The translations under genes and the position numbers were made by a program. Below, piece by piece: positions 22,757 through 62,483 of a stretch of 64,000 bases of DNA. Under the pieces are notes generated by a model. That model searched no databases, had not been told where the DNA came from, and worked only from the letters and a program-made list of their open reading frames with translations. Origin of the DNA: Chitinophagaceae bacterium (GTDB lineage: Bacteria > Bacteroidota > Bacteroidia > Chitinophagales > Chitinophagaceae); contig JADBXR010000002.1 of assembly GCA_020403425.1 (NCBI GenBank), forward strand, positions 868,001 to 932,000, in the 5' to 3' direction. Every line of letters begins with the position of its first letter. Within the stretch, counting starts at the first letter, position 1.

Positions 22757-22856
22757 ATGATCACAGATTTTTATGATTTATGTATGATCACAGATTTTTA
22801 TGATCTGAGTATGATTTCACTGAAAGAAACCTTCTGCGAAATCATACTCAGATCAT
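22757..22856. repeat. 27-bp direct repeat plus 19-bp palindrome
   Basis: atgatcacagatttttatgat occurs at 22757-22777 and 22784-22804, period 27. The second copy runs into atgatctgagtatgatttc (22800-22818), which has an exact inverted copy at 22838-22856. The structure fills the whole space between the two GMC-unit genes. It is similar in style to, but not in phase with, the heptamer palindromes. Confidence 0.8.
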
Positions 22857-22868
22857 ATCTATCAGCGA

Positions 22869-24611
22869 TCAAAGGTTTTGTTTTTTCATTTCGTCAATGA
22901 TATATTCCGAAGCACGCATAGAAAGCGCCAGGATCGTCCAGGTGATGTTCTTATCGGCCTGAGATGTGAACTGACTGCCATCTACGCAGAACAGGGTCTT
23001 GCAGTCATGCGCCTGGCTCCATTTGTTCAGAGCTGAGGTCTTACGGTCCGCTCCCATACGAACGGTTCCGGCTTCGTGGATGATGTTGCCGGGGTTGTTA
23101 AGTCCCCAGTTGTTCTTTTCATCATCATCTCCCCCCCAGGTAATGACGGCACCCATATTATGCAGGATCTCTTTAAAGGTCTCCTTCATGTGTTTGGCCT
23201 GTTTGATCTCGTACTCGGAATGATTGGTATGGAAACGCAGTACGGGGATCCCGTATTTGTCAACCACTTTCGGATCTATCTCGCAATAGTTGTTGATATT
23301 AGGAACCGCTTCACCCCTGCCGGCCATACCTACGCCTGCTCCGTAGAAGAATCGGGCATCTTCTTTCAGTCCGGCACCATACCCTCCGGCTTCCTTGGTT
23401 TTACCGTTCACCATGTATTTGCCGTTCTGGTATTGCATGCCCATACCGAAACCATATGCCGGCTGACCCATGCCGCCCCAGTACTCAATATGGTAACCAC
23501 GTGGAAAGTCCAGCTTCTTATTATCCAGCCACCAGGGGGTATACACGTGCATACCTCCCACGCCATCTTCGTTGTAACGCTTGCGGCCATACAATTGTGG
23601 CAATACGCCACCTACAGCGGCTCCGGTAGAATCATGCAAATACTTACCTACCACATTGCTATCGTTGGCCAAACCATTCGGATGGCGGGTTGATTTTGAG
23701 TTCAGCAACAGACGGGCGGTTTCGCAGGCACTGGCTGCCAGTATCACTACTCGGCCACTTACCTGGTACTCCATCATATCCGCTTTGTTCACGTAAGATA
23801 TGCCCGTAGCAATGCCTTCCGCGTTGGTGATCACTTCGCGTGCCATGGCATTGGTGATCACATCCACGTTGCCGGTTGCCACAGCGGGTTTGATGAGTAC
23901 GGAAGAGGAGGAGAAGTCGCCATATACCTTACAGCTTCTGCCACACTGCGCACAAAAGAAACAGGCGCCACGCTCATCATTGATTTTCTTGGTGAGGATC
24001 GATAAACGCGATGGGATCACAGGGATCCCCATGCCTGTCGCCGCTTTTTTGATCATTAGCTCATGCAGCCTGGGTTTGGGCGGCGGTAAAAAAATACCAT
24101 CAGGGTCGTTGGGCAATCCTTCATTCGACCCAAAGACACCGATCAGTTTATCGATCTTATCGTAGTAAGGTTTTACATCTTCGTAACCGATGGGCCAGTC
24201 ATCACCCAGACCATCAATACTTCTGCGTTTGAAGTCTTTCGGACCAAAACGCAGGGAGATACGGCCCCAGTGATTGGTCCGTCCGCCGATCATACGTGCC
24301 CGCCACCAGTCCCATTTGGCACTGCCTTCGGCCATGGTATAGGGTTCACCGTCAATTTCCCAACCCCAGTAACATCCGTCAAAATCGCCGAAGGGCCTGA
24401 ACTTGGTACTGGCGCCGCGACGAGGGGAATCCCATGGGTTTTTCAACTGGGAGGAGTGTTTGGCAGGATCATAATCAGGCCCTGCTTCTATCAGGCATAC
24501 TTTCAGGCCCGATTTGGCCAATACATACGCAGCCATACCGCCACCCGCACCGGAGCCAACAATCACGGCATCGTATTTCTTGCTTTCTTTTTTGATCTGG
24601 AGATCGCCCAT
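22869..24611 (-). CDS. GMC-family FAD oxidoreductase, gluconate-dehydrogenase-like
   Basis: A 580-residue flavoprotein dehydrogenase of sugars or sugar acids. N-terminal dinucleotide fold AVIVGSGAGGGMAAYVLA followed by LIEAGPDYD, the substrate-cap region, and the GMC C-terminal segment HEAGTVRMGAD...FCVDGSQF with NITWTILALSMR. A cysteine cluster CFFCAQCGRSC (near residue 220) occurs in this subgroup. No Tat signal of its own is visible; the partner subunit at 22063-22755 carries one, so the pair may be exported together. The substrate cannot be told from sequence. No cytochrome c subunit is adjacent. Confidence 0.88.
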   Translation of the reverse strand: MGDLQIKKESKKYDAVIVGSGAGGGMAAYVLAKSGLKVCLIEAGPDYDPAKHSSQLKNPWDSPRRGASTKFRPFGDFDGCYWGWEIDGEPYTMAEGSAKWDWWRARMIGGRTNHWGRISLRFGPKDFKRRSIDGLGDDWPIGYEDVKPYYDKIDKLIGVFGSNEGLPNDPDGIFLPPPKPRLHELMIKKAATGMGIPVIPSRLSILTKKINDERGACFFCAQCGRSCKVYGDFSSSSVLIKPAVATGNVDVITNAMAREVITNAEGIATGISYVNKADMMEYQVSGRVVILAASACETARLLLNSKSTRHPNGLANDSNVVGKYLHDSTGAAVGGVLPQLYGRKRYNEDGVGGMHVYTPWWLDNKKLDFPRGYHIEYWGGMGQPAYGFGMGMQYQNGKYMVNGKTKEAGGYGAGLKEDARFFYGAGVGMAGRGEAVPNINNYCEIDPKVVDKYGIPVLRFHTNHSEYEIKQAKHMKETFKEILHNMGAVITWGGDDDEKNNWGLNNPGNIIHEAGTVRMGADRKTSALNKWSQAHDCKTLFCVDGSQFTSQADKNITWTILALSMRASEYIIDEMKKQNL

Positions 24612-33399: not shown

Positions 33400-33550
33400 G
33401 TCGTCTGTTGTGAGTAGTGAGTGGGGAGTAGGTAGTATGTTATAAATAATTTATAAATGGATAAAGGGGTTGGGTTTGAACCAGTGTTAGTTCAAACCCA
33501 ACCCCTTCCTCTTTACTCCCCCCATTGACACTCACTACTCACCACTCACT
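33395..33550. repeat. Nested heptamer palindrome between convergent genes
   Basis: Outer left arm cgtgagt, cgtctgt, tgtgagt, agtgagt, ggggagt, aggtagt (33395-33436) pairs with actcacc/actcact-type units at 33515-33550. Inside lies a separate perfect 18-bp hairpin (33464-33481 with 33490-33507). The outer arms contribute the stop codons of both neighbours, TGA of the GGGP synthase at 33397-33399 and of the M28 peptidase at 33546-33548. Confidence 0.88.
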
Positions 33551-39891: not shown

Positions 39892-39977
39892 GCGTGAGCG
39901 GTGAGTAGTGAATAGGTAGTCGAAAAAGCATACTTTAGCCTTCCTACTCCCTACTCACCACTAACTACTCACGAGCA
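39892..39977. repeat. Heptamer palindrome between mscL and scpA
   Basis: Left units gcgtgag, cggtgag, tagtgaa, taggtag (39892-39919); right units cctactc, cctactc, accacta, actactc (39943-39970), strict 7-bp phase. It sits directly 3' of the mscL stop (minus strand). Confidence 0.85.
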
Positions 39978-58656: not shown

Positions 58657-59574
58657 ATGGAAGATATCAAAACACAATGGATCAGTCTTATTCACCAGTT
58701 ACAGGATGATATCTGTGTGGCTCTGGAAACCTGCGATGGTAAGGCCCGTTTTATTGAAGACAAATGGGAAAGGCCTGAAGGTGGAGGCGGTAAGACCCGT
58801 GTGATCAGTAACGGGAATGTGTTTGAGAAGGGAGGTGTGAATACTTCCGTGGTCTTTGGCAGTGTTACTGACACCATGCGTAGCCAGCTTAAGATCAATG
58901 GCGACAAATGGTTTGCCTGTGGCATGAGCATTGTGATTCATCCGCTGAACCCTTTTGTGCCTACAGTACATTGTAACTACCGCATGTTCGAATTGTATGA
59001 CGCTAAGGATCATGTGATCGACCGTTGGTTTGGTGGCGGCACCGATCTAACACCTTATTACCTGTTCGAGGAAGATGCCCGTCATTTTCACCGGACCTAT
59101 CAAAACATCTGCGACGGTTTCGACACAGGTTTCTACCCGCTTTTCAAAGAGGAGTGCGACAACTATTTTGTGAACCGTCACCGGAACAATGAACGCCGTG
59201 GTATTGGTGGTATCTTTTACGATCACCAGCGGCCCGACGCGGACAAGGATGTTCAGTTCTGGATCCGTTTTGCGAAAGCCTGCGGATATGGATTCATAGA
59301 TTCGTATATTCCGATAGTGGATAAAAGGAAACAGACCGTTTATCAGCCGGAACATAAATACTGGCAGGAGATCAGACGTGGCCGGTACACCGAGTTCAAT
59401 CTGGTACATGACCGCGGAACTATTTTCGGACTGAAAACAAATGGCAGAACAGAAAGCATTTTAATGAGCTTACCGCCAACGGTAAGATTTGAATACAATC
59501 ACCAACCGGCTGAAGGAAGTGCCGAAGCAGCATTATTGGATGCATGCCTGCACCCCCGCAACTGGGTCAACTAA
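58657..59574 (+). CDS. hemF: Oxygen-dependent coproporphyrinogen III oxidase
   Basis: Aerobic enzyme for coproporphyrinogen III to protoporphyrinogen IX, 305 residues. Seen: GGGKTRVISNGNVFEKGGVN, SIVIHPLNPFVPTVHCNYR, WFGGGTDLTPYYLFEED, RGIGGIFYDH and EFNLVHDRGTIFGLKT. Its presence, not only HemN, fits an aerobic or facultative organism. 15 bp after hemE; stop is 7 bp before hemB. Confidence 0.97.
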   Translation: MEDIKTQWISLIHQLQDDICVALETCDGKARFIEDKWERPEGGGGKTRVISNGNVFEKGGVNTSVVFGSVTDTMRSQLKINGDKWFACGMSIVIHPLNPFVPTVHCNYRMFELYDAKDHVIDRWFGGGTDLTPYYLFEEDARHFHRTYQNICDGFDTGFYPLFKEECDNYFVNRHRNNERRGIGGIFYDHQRPDADKDVQFWIRFAKACGYGFIDSYIPIVDKRKQTVYQPEHKYWQEIRRGRYTEFNLVHDRGTIFGLKTNGRTESILMSLPPTVRFEYNHQPAEGSAEAALLDACLHPRNWVN

Positions 59575-59581
59575 TGATTCT

Positions 59582-60556
59582 ATGTACCTGCAAAGAAGAA
59601 ACAGGATCTTACGCAGATCGGCCGCCATCCGTTCACTGGTAGCGGAAACCATTTTACGCCCATCCGATTTCATCGCCCCATTGTTCATTGATGAGGGAGA
59701 GAACCTTGCTACAGAGATCGCTTCCATGCCGGGCTATTACCGGCGCTCCCTTGACCTGACCGAGAAGGAAGTGAAGGAACTCTGGAGCATGGGTATCAGA
59801 TCCGTTCTCCTGTTCATCAAATGCAAGGACGAGTGGAAAGACAATACCGGGAAAGAAGCCTGGAACCCCGATGGCCTGATGCAGCGAAGCATCAAAGCCA
59901 TTAAGGATGCGGTTCCGGAAATGGTGGTGATGACCGATGTGGCCCTGGACCCTTACTCCTCTTTCGGACACGATGGTATTGTAAAAGATGGCGAGATCGT
60001 GAATGATGAGACCGTGGAAGCTTTGGTGAAGATGAGTATCAGTCACGCCCGCTCCGGCGCCGATTTTGTAGCCCCCAGCGATATGATGGATGGCCGCATC
60101 GGCGCCATACGCAGCGGACTGGAAGAAAACGGTTTTACGCAAACCGGTATCATGAGTTACAGTGCCAAATACGCGTCCTGTTTTTATGGCCCGTTCCGTG
60201 ATGCGCTGGACAGCGCTCCGGGTTTTGGCGATAAGAAAACCTACCAGATGGATTATGCCAATCGCACGGAAGCCGTCAGGGAAACCCTGATGGATGTGGA
60301 AGAAGGGGCGGACATCGTAATGGTAAAACCGGCGATGGCCTACCTCGACATCATCCGTGAGATAAAAAATACGGTGGATGTACCGGTAAGCGCCTACCAA
60401 GTCAGCGGCGAATATGCTATGATCAAAGCCGCAGCCAAAATGGGCTGGCTGGATGAGAACAAAGCAGTGATCGAGAGCCTCACGTCCATCAAACGTGCCG
60501 GCGCCGACCTGATAGCCACCTATTTTGCGAAGGATGCAGTTAGATTGCTGGGGTAG
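59582..60556 (+). CDS. hemB: Delta-aminolevulinic acid dehydratase (porphobilinogen synthase)
   Basis: Condenses two 5-aminolevulinate molecules to porphobilinogen; 324 residues from ATG 59582. The frame extends to 59489 inside hemF, but MYLQRRNRILRRSAAIRSLV matches family N-termini and sits 7 bp after hemF. The two active-site lysines are in SYSAKYAS and MVKPAMAY. The metal loop reads TDVALDPYSSFGHDG with no cysteine triad, hence the magnesium rather than the zinc type. Last of the directly adjoining hem genes before the four-helix-bundle insertion. Confidence 0.95.
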   Translation: MYLQRRNRILRRSAAIRSLVAETILRPSDFIAPLFIDEGENLATEIASMPGYYRRSLDLTEKEVKELWSMGIRSVLLFIKCKDEWKDNTGKEAWNPDGLMQRSIKAIKDAVPEMVVMTDVALDPYSSFGHDGIVKDGEIVNDETVEALVKMSISHARSGADFVAPSDMMDGRIGAIRSGLEENGFTQTGIMSYSAKYASCFYGPFRDALDSAPGFGDKKTYQMDYANRTEAVRETLMDVEEGADIVMVKPAMAYLDIIREIKNTVDVPVSAYQVSGEYAMIKAAAKMGWLDENKAVIESLTSIKRAGADLIATYFAKDAVRLLG

Positions 60557-60615
60557 TATGTTGAAGCAGTAAGTAGTTATACTTGATGGGAGATAGGTGT
60601 TTAAACGGATTTTTC

Positions 60616-60642
60616 GTGAATGGGCAATGGTGAATGGTGAAT
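60616..60642. repeat. Left heptamer arm flanking the four-helix-bundle gene
   Basis: gtgaatg, ggcaatg, gtgaatg, gtgaat. Matches the reverse complement of 61059-61085 at 26 of 27 positions. It lies 60 bp after the hemB stop and 53 bp before the start of the flanked gene. Confidence 0.92.
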
Positions 60643-60694
60643 CTCTTTGTTTTGTGCTGAGAAAGTTGTCACATCACATACCTAAACCGATCCT

Positions 60695-61054
60695 ATGTTC
60701 CTTTTACTGAACCATCAGAAGCTTGACATATATGGAATTTCCAGATCACTCGTTCATGAATGCTACAGGTTAACCAACACCTTCCCTGCTGAAGAAAAAT
60801 TTGGAATGATTTCGCAGATACGGAGAGCCGCTTTATCAGTTCATTTGAATATTGCAGAAGGCGCTTCCAGAAAATCAGAGGCTGAGAGAAAGAGATATTA
60901 TGAGATTGCAAGAGGTTCCGTGATAGAGATCGATGCGGCATTGGATATTGCAGAGGACCTTTGCTATGTAAGGAATGTACCGATTGCGGACCTTGAAGAA
61001 TTAATGATCAAATGTTTTAAACTGCTATCAGGAATGATAGCGACCAATAAATAA
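60695..61054 (+). CDS. Four-helix-bundle protein (23S-rRNA-intervening-sequence / Avd-like family)
   Basis: A 119-residue all-helical protein of the TIGR02436 / PF05635 family. Diagnostic segments: [59 protein letters not shown] and [17 protein letters not shown]. Relatives lie in 23S rRNA intervening sequences of some bacteria and act as Avd in diversity-generating retroelements, where they bind nucleic acid. No rRNA or reverse transcriptase is in this window. The gene breaks the hem operon between hemB and hemL and is bracketed by inverted heptamer arms (60616-60642, 61059-61085). Confidence 0.93.
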
Positions 61055-61058
61055 AATC

Positions 61059-61085
61059 ATTCACCATTCACCATTGCCAATTCAC
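61059..61085. repeat. Right heptamer arm flanking the four-helix-bundle gene
   Basis: attcacc, attcacc, attgcca, attcac; starts 4 bp after the stop and ends 7 bp before the hemL ATG. Inverted copy of 60616-60642 with one mismatch. Confidence 0.92.
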
Positions 61086-61092
61086 ACCAACC

Positions 61093-62379
61093 ATGTACGA
61101 AAAAAGCAAACAACTCTTCACCCGCGCGCAGCAATCCATCCCGGGCGGAGTGAACTCTCCGGTAAGGGCATTTAAAAGCGTGGGCGGAACGCCTTTGTTC
61201 ATAGAAAAAGCAAAGGGTGCTTATTTATATGATGCCGACGGCAACGCATATATTGACTATATCGCTTCCTGGGGCCCCATGATCCTGGGACATGCCCACG
61301 AACCCGTAGTAAAAGCCATCCAGGAAAAAGCCCTGTTATCCACCTCTTACGGAGCACCCACCGAGCTGGAGATACAGATGGCCGAACTGATCAAGAGCAT
61401 GGCCCCGAACGTGGACCTGGTAAGAATGGTGAGCAGCGGAACGGAAGCCTGCATGAGCGCGCTGCGACTGGCAAGAGGATATACCGGCAAGAACAAGTTC
61501 ATCAAGTTCGAGGGATGTTACCATGGACATGCCGATGCCTTTCTGGTGAAGGCCGGCAGCGGACTGGCCACATTCAACATACAGACCGTTCCGGGTGTCA
61601 CCGGTGGTGTAGCCAACGATACCCTTACCTGTGCTTTCAACGACCTGGAAGCGGTTGAACAACTGGTGAAAGAAAATAAGAACGAGATCGCAGCCATCAT
61701 CACCGAACCTGTGGTGGGCAATATGGGTTGCATATTACCCAAGGCCGGTTTCCTGGAAGGCTTACGCAGCATCTGCGACAGGGAAGGCATCGTTTTCATC
61801 TTTGATGAGGTGATGACCGGTTTCCGACTGGCCGCCGGTGGTGCACAGCAGCATTTGAAGATAGATGCAGATCTGGTAACCTACGGCAAGGTAATTGGGG
61901 GAGGAATGCCTGTGGGTGCTTTCGGCGGCAAACGCGAGATCATGGAAAAGATCGCTCCGTTGGGTAATGTATACCAGGCCGGGACCCTCAGCGGTAACCC
62001 GATCGCCATGGTGGCCGGATTTACCATGCTCACCGAATTAAAGAACAACCCCTCGATCTATAGCGAACTCGAAGAGAAGACCGCTTACCTGCACAAAGGA
62101 CTGGACACCGTACTCAAGAACTCCGGTACCCCCTATGTGATCAACCGTCTGGGTTCTATGATCAGCGTGCATTTCAGCGATCACCCGGTCACTGATTTTG
62201 CAACTGCCGCATCAGCCAACAACGAACTCTTCAAAAAATATTTTCATGCTATGCTGCAACGCGGCATCTATCTGCCACCTTCCGCTTTTGAAAGCTGGTT
62301 CCTGAACAATGCCTTGTCCTATGCCGATCTTGATAAGACCATTCAGGCAACCGAAGAAAGTTTGAAGGAGATCTTATGA
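61093..62379 (+). CDS. hemL: Glutamate-1-semialdehyde 2,1-aminomutase
   Basis: PLP enzyme that makes 5-aminolevulinate from the HemA product; 428 residues. Seen: [43 protein letters not shown] and the PLP lysine K266 in [18 protein letters not shown], plus QAGTLSGNP. The TGA stop is the first base group of the following heptamer element. Its upstream region is the right arm of the mobile-looking four-helix-bundle unit, so its expression may depend on that insert or on read-through. Confidence 0.97.
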
Positions 62380-62460
62380 ATCGTTGATCGTCAGTCGTGA
62401 ATCGTGAGTATATACACGACCCAGATACAACTCACGACTGACGATTCACGGCTCACGACC
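62377..62460. repeat. Heptamer palindrome after hemL
   Basis: gaatcgt, tgatcgt, cagtcgt, gaatcgt, gagtata, tacacga, cccagat, acaactc, acgactg, acgattc, acggctc, acgacct. The loop sequence tacacgacccag is shared with the element inside hemC. The arms pair with a one-unit slip (atcgtcagtcgtga and its complement). Confidence 0.9.
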
Positions 62461-62483
62461 TACGGCGTTTCCCCAAGCCTACG

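Follow-up and report, generated by a model that had tools for sequence, protein, structure and literature searches.

Why should a gene for a small protein of the 23S rRNA-intervening-sequence family (S23p, PF05635) lie between hemB and hemL, enclosed by two inverted arrays of a 7-bp word? The question is posed by a locus in a 64,000-nucleotide stretch (hereafter, the window) of contig JADBXR010000002.1 from the 3.72-Mb genome of a Chitinophagaceae bacterium (hereafter, the source genome or G000). We propose, with a probability of roughly 70%, that this feature, the hem element, is a small mobile element with inward-directed arrays of a 7-bp word at its ends and one S23p/IVP gene between them, whose word-specific protein would carry both gene-bearing and gene-less units to new intergenic sites. 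The comparisons on which we base this reading concern the anatomy of the element, the association of arms with the family at large, the correlation between word and protein, the boundaries of the unit, and gene-less copies that match elements of the source genome. Whole genomes were searched at one per species; L001–L010 denote the PF05635 loci of the source genome, and other G and L numbers denote other genomes and loci.

The open reading frame (ORF) of the hem element matches the PF05635 profile at 102.8 bits (curated cut-off 33.8) and TIGR02436 at 94.3 bits (curated cut-off 24), and it is adjoined by hemB and hemL. A sequence-only reading of the window had described a four-helix-bundle gene interrupting hemB–hemL between 27-bp inverted arms, and this description was borne out: 26 of 27 arm positions are complementary, the arm score of 24.5 is the maximum of the window, where 99% of 1500 random positions scored 14.5 or less, and the predicted fold of the protein is a four-helix bundle (predicted local distance difference test, pLDDT, 92). 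The whole element measures 470 bp (about 0.47 kb), and no Rfam match was found at 60,400–61,300 up to E 0.1. Structure searches with the model recovered two S23p structures, 2gsc (template modeling score, TM, 0.82–0.87) and 2rld (TM 0.66–0.82), the values depending on query length, and 2gsc was also recovered by sequence (76 bits). Alignment of 20 sequences shows polar residues that vary little or not at all: Q41, R44, S48, N52, E55, and R59, spaced 3–4 residues apart in helix 2 or at its end, and S75 and E78 in helix 3; on the model they form a conserved surface that is a candidate for binding or cutting nucleic acid.

Similar elements lie elsewhere in the source genome. A profile search found ten PF05635 loci, of which nine are intact; the remaining one, L010, carries two stops and lacks arms (best score 10.5). 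All nine intact genes sit between inverted arrays of short tandem units, and the unit is different for each: 7 bp in six elements (L002, GTGAGAC; L003, GTGAATG; L004, GTTTGGG; L005, ACTGGAT; L007, TTTTGAA; L009, TGAATAT) and 8 bp in three (L001, TTGGCGCA; L006, AATTTGAG; L008, AATGAGTG), with repeat lags computed and units named by eye. Also by eye, a GTATTTATAC / GTATAAATAC motif, possibly a promoter or operator, was seen in L002, L004, L006, and L009, either close to the left arm or in the interval from that arm to the start codon.

The same anatomy recurs across the family. We surveyed loci from relatives, from the order (209 of 248 genomes carry PF05635), and from named genomes of many phyla (best 80 loci) with a profile built from eight source-genome proteins, which gave 156 genes in 143 loci after 25 hemL loci were left out; the 149 genes with at least 200 bp of flank on both sides were scored for arms. 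Arms scored 15 or more around 86 of these (58%), compared with 0.1% for first-order resampled flanks and 1.3% when an upstream flank was combined with the downstream flank of another locus. Among the 172 arms of the 86 armed genes, the best repeat lag was 7 in 135 and 8 in 26. At a threshold of 14, and with named loci grouped by record title, arms were found at 36 of the 53 from Bacteroidota and kin and, outside this group, at 18 of the 23 loci with enough flank (25 in total), a set that includes Clostridia, Acidobacteria, Proteobacteria, Fibrobacter, Nitrospirae, Gemmataceae, Akkermansia, and an archaeal bin. The sequence-only reading had expected inverted 7-bp repeats to be enriched around family members, and they are; judged by comparison of gene, arms, and movement as a unit, the finding is both real and wider than that reading supposed.

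Such arms are also largely particular to the family. Among 707 ORFs of at least 90 amino acids in stretches of G000, G068, and G126, heptameric arms scoring at least 15 enclose seven, six of them PF05635, which corresponds to 6 of 11 whole PF05635 genes versus 1 of roughly 696 other ORFs; some of these stretches were chosen for their PF05635 genes, which leaves the rate among the other ORFs unaffected. The seventh case (L203:12649–13062, G068) is a heptameric palindrome whose 360-bp loop holds a small non-PF05635 ORF with weak Pfam hits below cut-off, possibly other cargo, for which it is the only candidate, or a product of chance. A 2.06-Mb scan for palindromes with gene-sized loops, biased in that many stretches were chosen for PF05635 genes, yielded 11 heptameric palindromes, nine of which hold PF05635; its randomly placed stretches contributed one with PF05635 (L208) and one without (L203). 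Two further loci of G126 stood out. L291 (contig 6, about 16.5–20.6 kb) has three consecutive PF05635 genes inside about 4 kb, and L284:18889–19382 is a large 8-mer palindrome of the same AATTTGAG type as L006 whose 426-bp loop contains no recognizable PF05635 gene, perhaps a decayed element.

The word of the arms goes with the protein between them. Among pairs of elements with arms scoring at least 14, the share with similar arms (score at least 14) was 87% where the proteins are more than 75% identical, 28% at 60–75%, 4% at 50–60%, and 2% among random pairs. A search of 344 family genomes for the hem S23p protein gave 30 loci, its own included, and 29 of them have arms scoring at least 14. 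Its 21 relatives at 66–75% identity comprise seven at the hemB–hemL site and 14 whose examined flanks contain no hem genes; arms matching those of the hem element on both sides (score at least 12) were found in all seven of the former, in 11 of the latter, and in none of 182 other PF05635 loci. Loss of heptamers from the hem-site relatives had been set beforehand as refuting, and all seven carry heptamer arms. At 59–63% identity the word has in many relatives become one of the GTGAATC and GTGAGTG types. Read inward over 85 elements, a set that contains a few orthologs or duplicates, the words share the grammar GWNNTNA (G 0.92, T or A 0.83, T 0.68, A 0.75), which carries 2.75 bits of information; 20 column-shuffled controls averaged 1.97 bits and did not exceed 2.10. 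The arrays also have a direction, G exceeding C in the left arm of 91% of 110 elements. Comparison across loci indicates that protein and word diverge together and that one genome can hold many lineages with one word each; the protein would then recognize the heptamer word of its own element.

Do gene and arms travel together? In L272 and L276, which occupy unrelated sites of G068 and encode proteins 83% identical, DNA homology stops 2–9 bp from the outer arm ends, and five of the eight moved pairs aligned are bounded on both sides within 40 bp of the arms; all such ends, being read off local alignments, are approximate. In the coordinates of the hem element, homology with most of the 14 other-site relatives likewise ends close to the arms, more often on the right than on the left (Table 1). 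Among the seven hem-site relatives, five are homologous for more than 500 bp beyond the element on both sides, as for a shared site, L346 on one side, and L347 on neither. L272/L276 and most other-site relatives, with exceptions noted below, show what is expected of a DNA transposon, a discrete unit at different sites. Since word and protein correlate and most homology breaks off close to the outer ends of the arms, gene and arms appear to constitute the unit of movement.

The arms also occur without a gene. Those of the nine source-genome elements have 50 further matches in 464 kb of the source genome (10.8 per 100 kb, counted in 60-bp bins, so that one palindrome may count twice), the bulk of them from L009, L002, and L008. 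The same arms found one match in 200 kb of G010 (a congener without a PF05635 gene), one in 200 kb of G068, two in 100 kb of G179, and six in 700 kb of seven further genomes. The arms of G068 match best in G068 itself (10 in 200 kb versus 4 in 464 kb of G000), and those of the congener G126 match G000 33 times, as expected from shared words. Gene-less palindromes number 26 in 1064 kb of six genomes with at least three PF05635 genes and 5 in 827 kb of eight genomes with none; adding G126, whose stretches were picked and not random, brings the former to 48 in 1379 kb. The window holds eight gene-less heptameric palindromes at a score of at least 13 (Table 1), and ten of its loci other than the hem element match arms of source-genome PF05635 elements, the best match always being a sibling (L002, L004, L005, L007, or L009) and never the hem element. 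Two side observations concern palindromic sequence of the region: a 40-bp inverted repeat at window positions 22,785–22,871 is non-heptameric (83%), and the G126 site orthologous to the palindrome of the L009 type in Table 1 has several tandem copies of a roughly 90-bp unit that includes pieces of an L009-type arm.

Table 1 Coordinates, in the window, of the hem element, its neighboring genes, and gene-less palindromes
Feature	Position	Strand	Basis or remark
Left arm: tandem heptamers, word GTGAATG (GTGAATGGGCAATGGTGAATGGTGAAT)	60616..60642	+	Homology with 9 of 14 other-site relatives starts within 25 bp of the outer end
S23p / 23S rRNA-intervening-sequence protein gene (PF05635, TIGR02436), 119 aa, predicted four-helix bundle	60695..61054	+	Profiles, structure prediction
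Right arm: left arm inverted, 26/27	61059..61085	-	Homology with 13 of 14 other-site relatives stops within 25 bp of the outer end
hemB (porphobilinogen synthase), flanking, outside the element	59489..60556	+	
hemL (glutamate-1-semialdehyde aminomutase), flanking, outside the element	61093..62379	+	
Gene-less palindrome, L009 arm type	1687..1758		
Gene-less palindrome, L007 type	16282..16374		
Gene-less palindrome, L002 type	17515..17590		
Gene-less heptameric palindrome, weaker (score 14.5)	33407..33545		Below match threshold to source-genome element arms
Gene-less heptameric palindrome, weaker (score 14.5)	39894..39965		Below match threshold to source-genome element arms
Gene-less palindrome, L005 type (word ACTGGAT)	42586..42642		
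Gene-less palindrome, L002 type	52548..52695		
Gene-less palindrome, L002 type, after hemL	62382..62464		

These counts modify two claims of the sequence-only reading. It had listed some fifteen other loci with like 7-bp units; such loci exist, but by our criteria the number was a little high, and the best matches are to siblings of the hem element. It had further offered, as one interpretation, that the hem gene with its arms is an autonomous element and the gene-less palindromes its derivatives. Gene and arms do behave as one unit in most comparisons, and the gene-less palindromes, which match the arms of source-genome elements, are probably derivatives of gene-bearing elements, but each group in the window matches a sibling. 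Autonomy fared less well, no catalytic residue, enzyme, or target duplication having been identified; the hem site, moreover, has the look of long and repeated occupancy, not of a fresh invasion.

The history of the site bears this out. The hemB–hemL junction, which the same reading had proposed to compare for empty sites, is gene-free in the four congeners read; that of G010 (L040) holds an unrelated CGTCATCCCGAG-type palindrome. G126 is syntenic with G000 around the window at about 88–90% nucleotide identity. Nine of the 12 G000 palindromic sites in the shared region have a heptameric palindrome in G126 by scan, and the hem arms are there by alignment; in the other direction, 2 of 11 G126 palindromes with an ortholog lack a palindrome in G000. 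The two genomes have different words at three sites: hem, a site around contig position 844,770, and the L005 site (a gene with ACTGGAT arms in G000, a gene-less GTTTGTG palindrome in G126). HemB and HemL share 97% and 96% identity between the two, but the S23p proteins of the hem site share only 57%, with another word, while proteins up to 80% identical to the hem S23p protein are found elsewhere; the G126 protein is nearest (62%) to L362 and L363, both at other sites. Hem-site elements are present in nine genomes of eight other genera, and on a tree of 39 proteins they are scattered, with 9 label changes versus a shuffled mean of 9.8 (181 of 500 shuffles as low); the starred branches force at least two changes, and the bootstrap is not settled. 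We rejected simple vertical inheritance at the hem site, since the tree has no hem-site cluster and G126 has a 57%-identical protein with a different word. Because palindromic sites are shared but words differ at hem and elsewhere, sites persist and their occupants seem to be exchanged along with their words, which could reflect re-invasion of favored sites or conversion. The copy number of PF05635 is patchy among congeners, ranging from 0 to 13.

Several observations weigh against a mobile element. The survey sets favor high-scoring PF05635 members; even so, 63 of the 149 genes have arms scoring below 15, and the weak members L025–L027 and L038 reach only 8–10. Three of the moved pairs depart from the pattern: alignment is confined to the gene in L127/L121, extends past the arm on the right in L153/L150, and lacks arm boundaries in L105/L135. 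In the relatives' own coordinates, the 14 comparisons with the hem element are looser, with ends within 25 bp of the arm in 10 on the right and 8 on the left. Base-by-base reading of one pair, L272/L276, whose exact ends are uncertain, showed no duplication of the target site. The arms of G179 show no excess in their own genome (3 in 100 kb, versus 15 in 464 kb, or 3.2 per 100 kb, of G000). Gene-less density tracks the number of PF05635 genes loosely (Spearman 0.49, P = 0.05), 19 of the 26 gene-less palindromes in the random samples of copy-bearing genomes come from G000 alone, and 100 kb of G273, which has 11 PF05635 genes, contains none. No clean pair of filled and empty sites was established between G000 and G126, and recent movement is slow, given that nine of the 12 G000 sites, plus hem by alignment, are palindromic in G126 too. 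Finally, no helper or joining enzyme was identified among the candidates examined (RVT_1 and Y1_Tnp).

Part of this record could be read as that of a regulator with dispersed operators, whereby the protein represses its own gene by way of the arrays on either side and has the gene-less palindromes as further targets, spread by ordinary recombination with no mobility. Word and protein do change together, directional arrays surround the gene, and the majority of the gene-less copies examined lie at sites common to G126. We nevertheless regard this explanation as unlikely: homology between most copies at different sites ends at the arms, the distribution among congeners is patchy, the hem-site copies are not a clade, and the inverted copy past the stop codon would be superfluous for an operator.

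For a mobile element, binding, mobilization in trans, and catalysis, all of which we infer, might proceed as follows. The S23p protein, a pentamer by analogy with a solved relative, would recognize its own element's word and, as a pentamer, bring the two arms together; units with the gene and palindromes without it, if they share the word, would both be carried to new intergenic sites, with strand transfer completed by the S23p protein itself or by host enzymes. Our preferred guess is a DNA-level route; for example, hairpin extrusion of the arms, or binding to them at replication forks, might be followed by completion of the reaction by host enzymes. Arm mismatches comprise 115 G.U-compatible transitions and 128 incompatible changes (P = 0.44), and this lack of bias suggests, weakly, that the arms matter as DNA and not as RNA.

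The alternative at the RNA level, which we consider a little less likely than the regulator, is that the element is an intervening sequence (IVS) whose arms pair in the transcript; RNase III would then excise the loop with the gene, as it does from 23S rRNA IVSs, and the arms would be conserved because they pair as RNA. Folding prediction does pair the arms in the transcript (minimum energy −130.2 kcal/mol, z −3.2 against 100 shuffles). According to the passages of PMC4990558 on these sequences, the Coxiella 23S rRNA IVS, of a type 428–444 nt long, is an S23p ORF between terminal inverted repeats that form a 28-bp stem, with tandem GACAGAT heptamers before the gene whose number varies among strains. 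The hem element shares with the IVSs of Leptospira, Coxiella, and others a single S23p gene enclosed in the loop that terminal inverted repeats form, a similar size, and tandem heptamers. It differs in lying between the protein genes hemB and hemL and not inside an rRNA gene, in having heptamer arrays for both arms, in the several lineages per genome with words differing by lineage, and in the gene-less relatives within the same genome. An RNA-level IVS leaves the gene-less copies and the protein-matched words unexplained. For lack of a wobble bias we rejected the idea that the arms are selected for RNA pairing, although this is a weak ground, given that such pairing is still predicted.

Less probable again is that the S23p protein is an accessory and the palindromes are passengers of another mobilizer, either a reverse transcriptase, as Avd serves in diversity-generating retroelements, or a Y1/REP (repetitive extragenic palindromic) transposase. 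The predicted fold resembles chains of the retroelement complex 8ub7, which we take to be Avd (TM about 0.7–0.76; with E 0.2–0.5, by itself not significant), at about 10% identity. RVT_1 matches were absent from the source genome, G126, G179, G169, G111, and G273, which carry 7–16 PF05635 copies, and a reverse-transcriptase partner, suggested by the Avd-like fold, was rejected on the lack of a match in the source genome, which also separates the hem element from diversity-generating retroelements. In REPIN–RAYT systems (REP hairpins and REP-associated tyrosine transposases), short intergenic REP palindromes are reportedly tied to a Y1 transposase family, with the gene between the same repeats. 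The likeness lies in intergenic palindromes linked to one protein family whose gene they flank; the differences are that S23p is a four-helix bundle and not a Y1 HUH enzyme, that the arms are tandem 7-mers, and that the Y1_Tnp loci here have other palindromes. Y1_Tnp was matched in 16 of the 20 genomes rich in PF05635 copies and in 13 of the 20 that have none, with more summed matches in the former (57 versus 17), but it was not matched in four copy-rich genomes (G225, G257, G261, and G269, with 9–12 PF05635 copies), and none of 12 Y1_Tnp loci has heptameric arms scoring at least 14, L312 showing one flagged pair at 13 and a stronger palindrome of another kind. A Y1/REP transposase as a required helper was rejected on these grounds; a looser link is possible. 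That heptamer palindromes simply gather at permissive intergenic sites, with a gene happening to fall between two, is very improbable: differing palindromes do hold the hem site across genomes, including the unrelated one of G010, but the idea is refuted by the cross-locus control and by the single case among the non-PF05635 ORFs.

Miniature inverted-repeat transposable elements (MITEs) are non-autonomous transposon derivatives, and the gene-less palindromes resemble them in sharing ends with gene-bearing elements of the same genome; they differ in that the parent has no recognizable transposase and that no target duplication was seen. TAACTGA heptamers, described from Beggiatoaceae, Cyanobacteria, and some Bacteroidetes (PMC4679880), are likewise intergenic, tandem, and patchy over phyla, but they are almost all direct repeats of one fixed word, whereas the arms here are inverted and their words vary; S23 and four helix do not occur in the main text of that paper. 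Among the open-access papers listed by our searches, none described, in its title or the opening of its abstract, S23p genes outside rRNA with heptamer arms.

The S23p/IVP family is a very common one, with 4706 clustered relatives of the hem protein at E ≤ 0.001. The IVS sections of PMC4990558 describe S23p proteins as being without known function, cite a homopentamer for the Xanthomonas protein (Lin et al. 2006), and call the functionality and origin of rRNA IVSs unclear, citing earlier suggestions of transposition or mobility. By analogy with the hem element, rRNA IVSs with S23p look like captured relatives of hem-type elements. In its broadest form, which we advance tentatively and hold at somewhat less than even odds, the proposal is that of a widespread bacterial, possibly archaeal, class of transposon whose only gene encodes a pentameric four-helix-bundle protein without a known recombinase. 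The protein would read an evolvable 7-bp code (GWNNTNA), one repeat per protomer, and move its own unit together with gene-less palindromes, and the 23S rRNA IVSs, whose origin has been unclear since 1990, would be members caught in ribosomal genes. The association offers a testable answer on S23p function and IVS origin, since protein, word, ends, and gene-less copies can all be read from sequence and tested in vitro. It also offers an explanation for many of the intergenic heptamer palindromes of the genus, and it provides a natural set of matched protein–word pairs for asking how a small helical protein may recognize repeated DNA or RNA.
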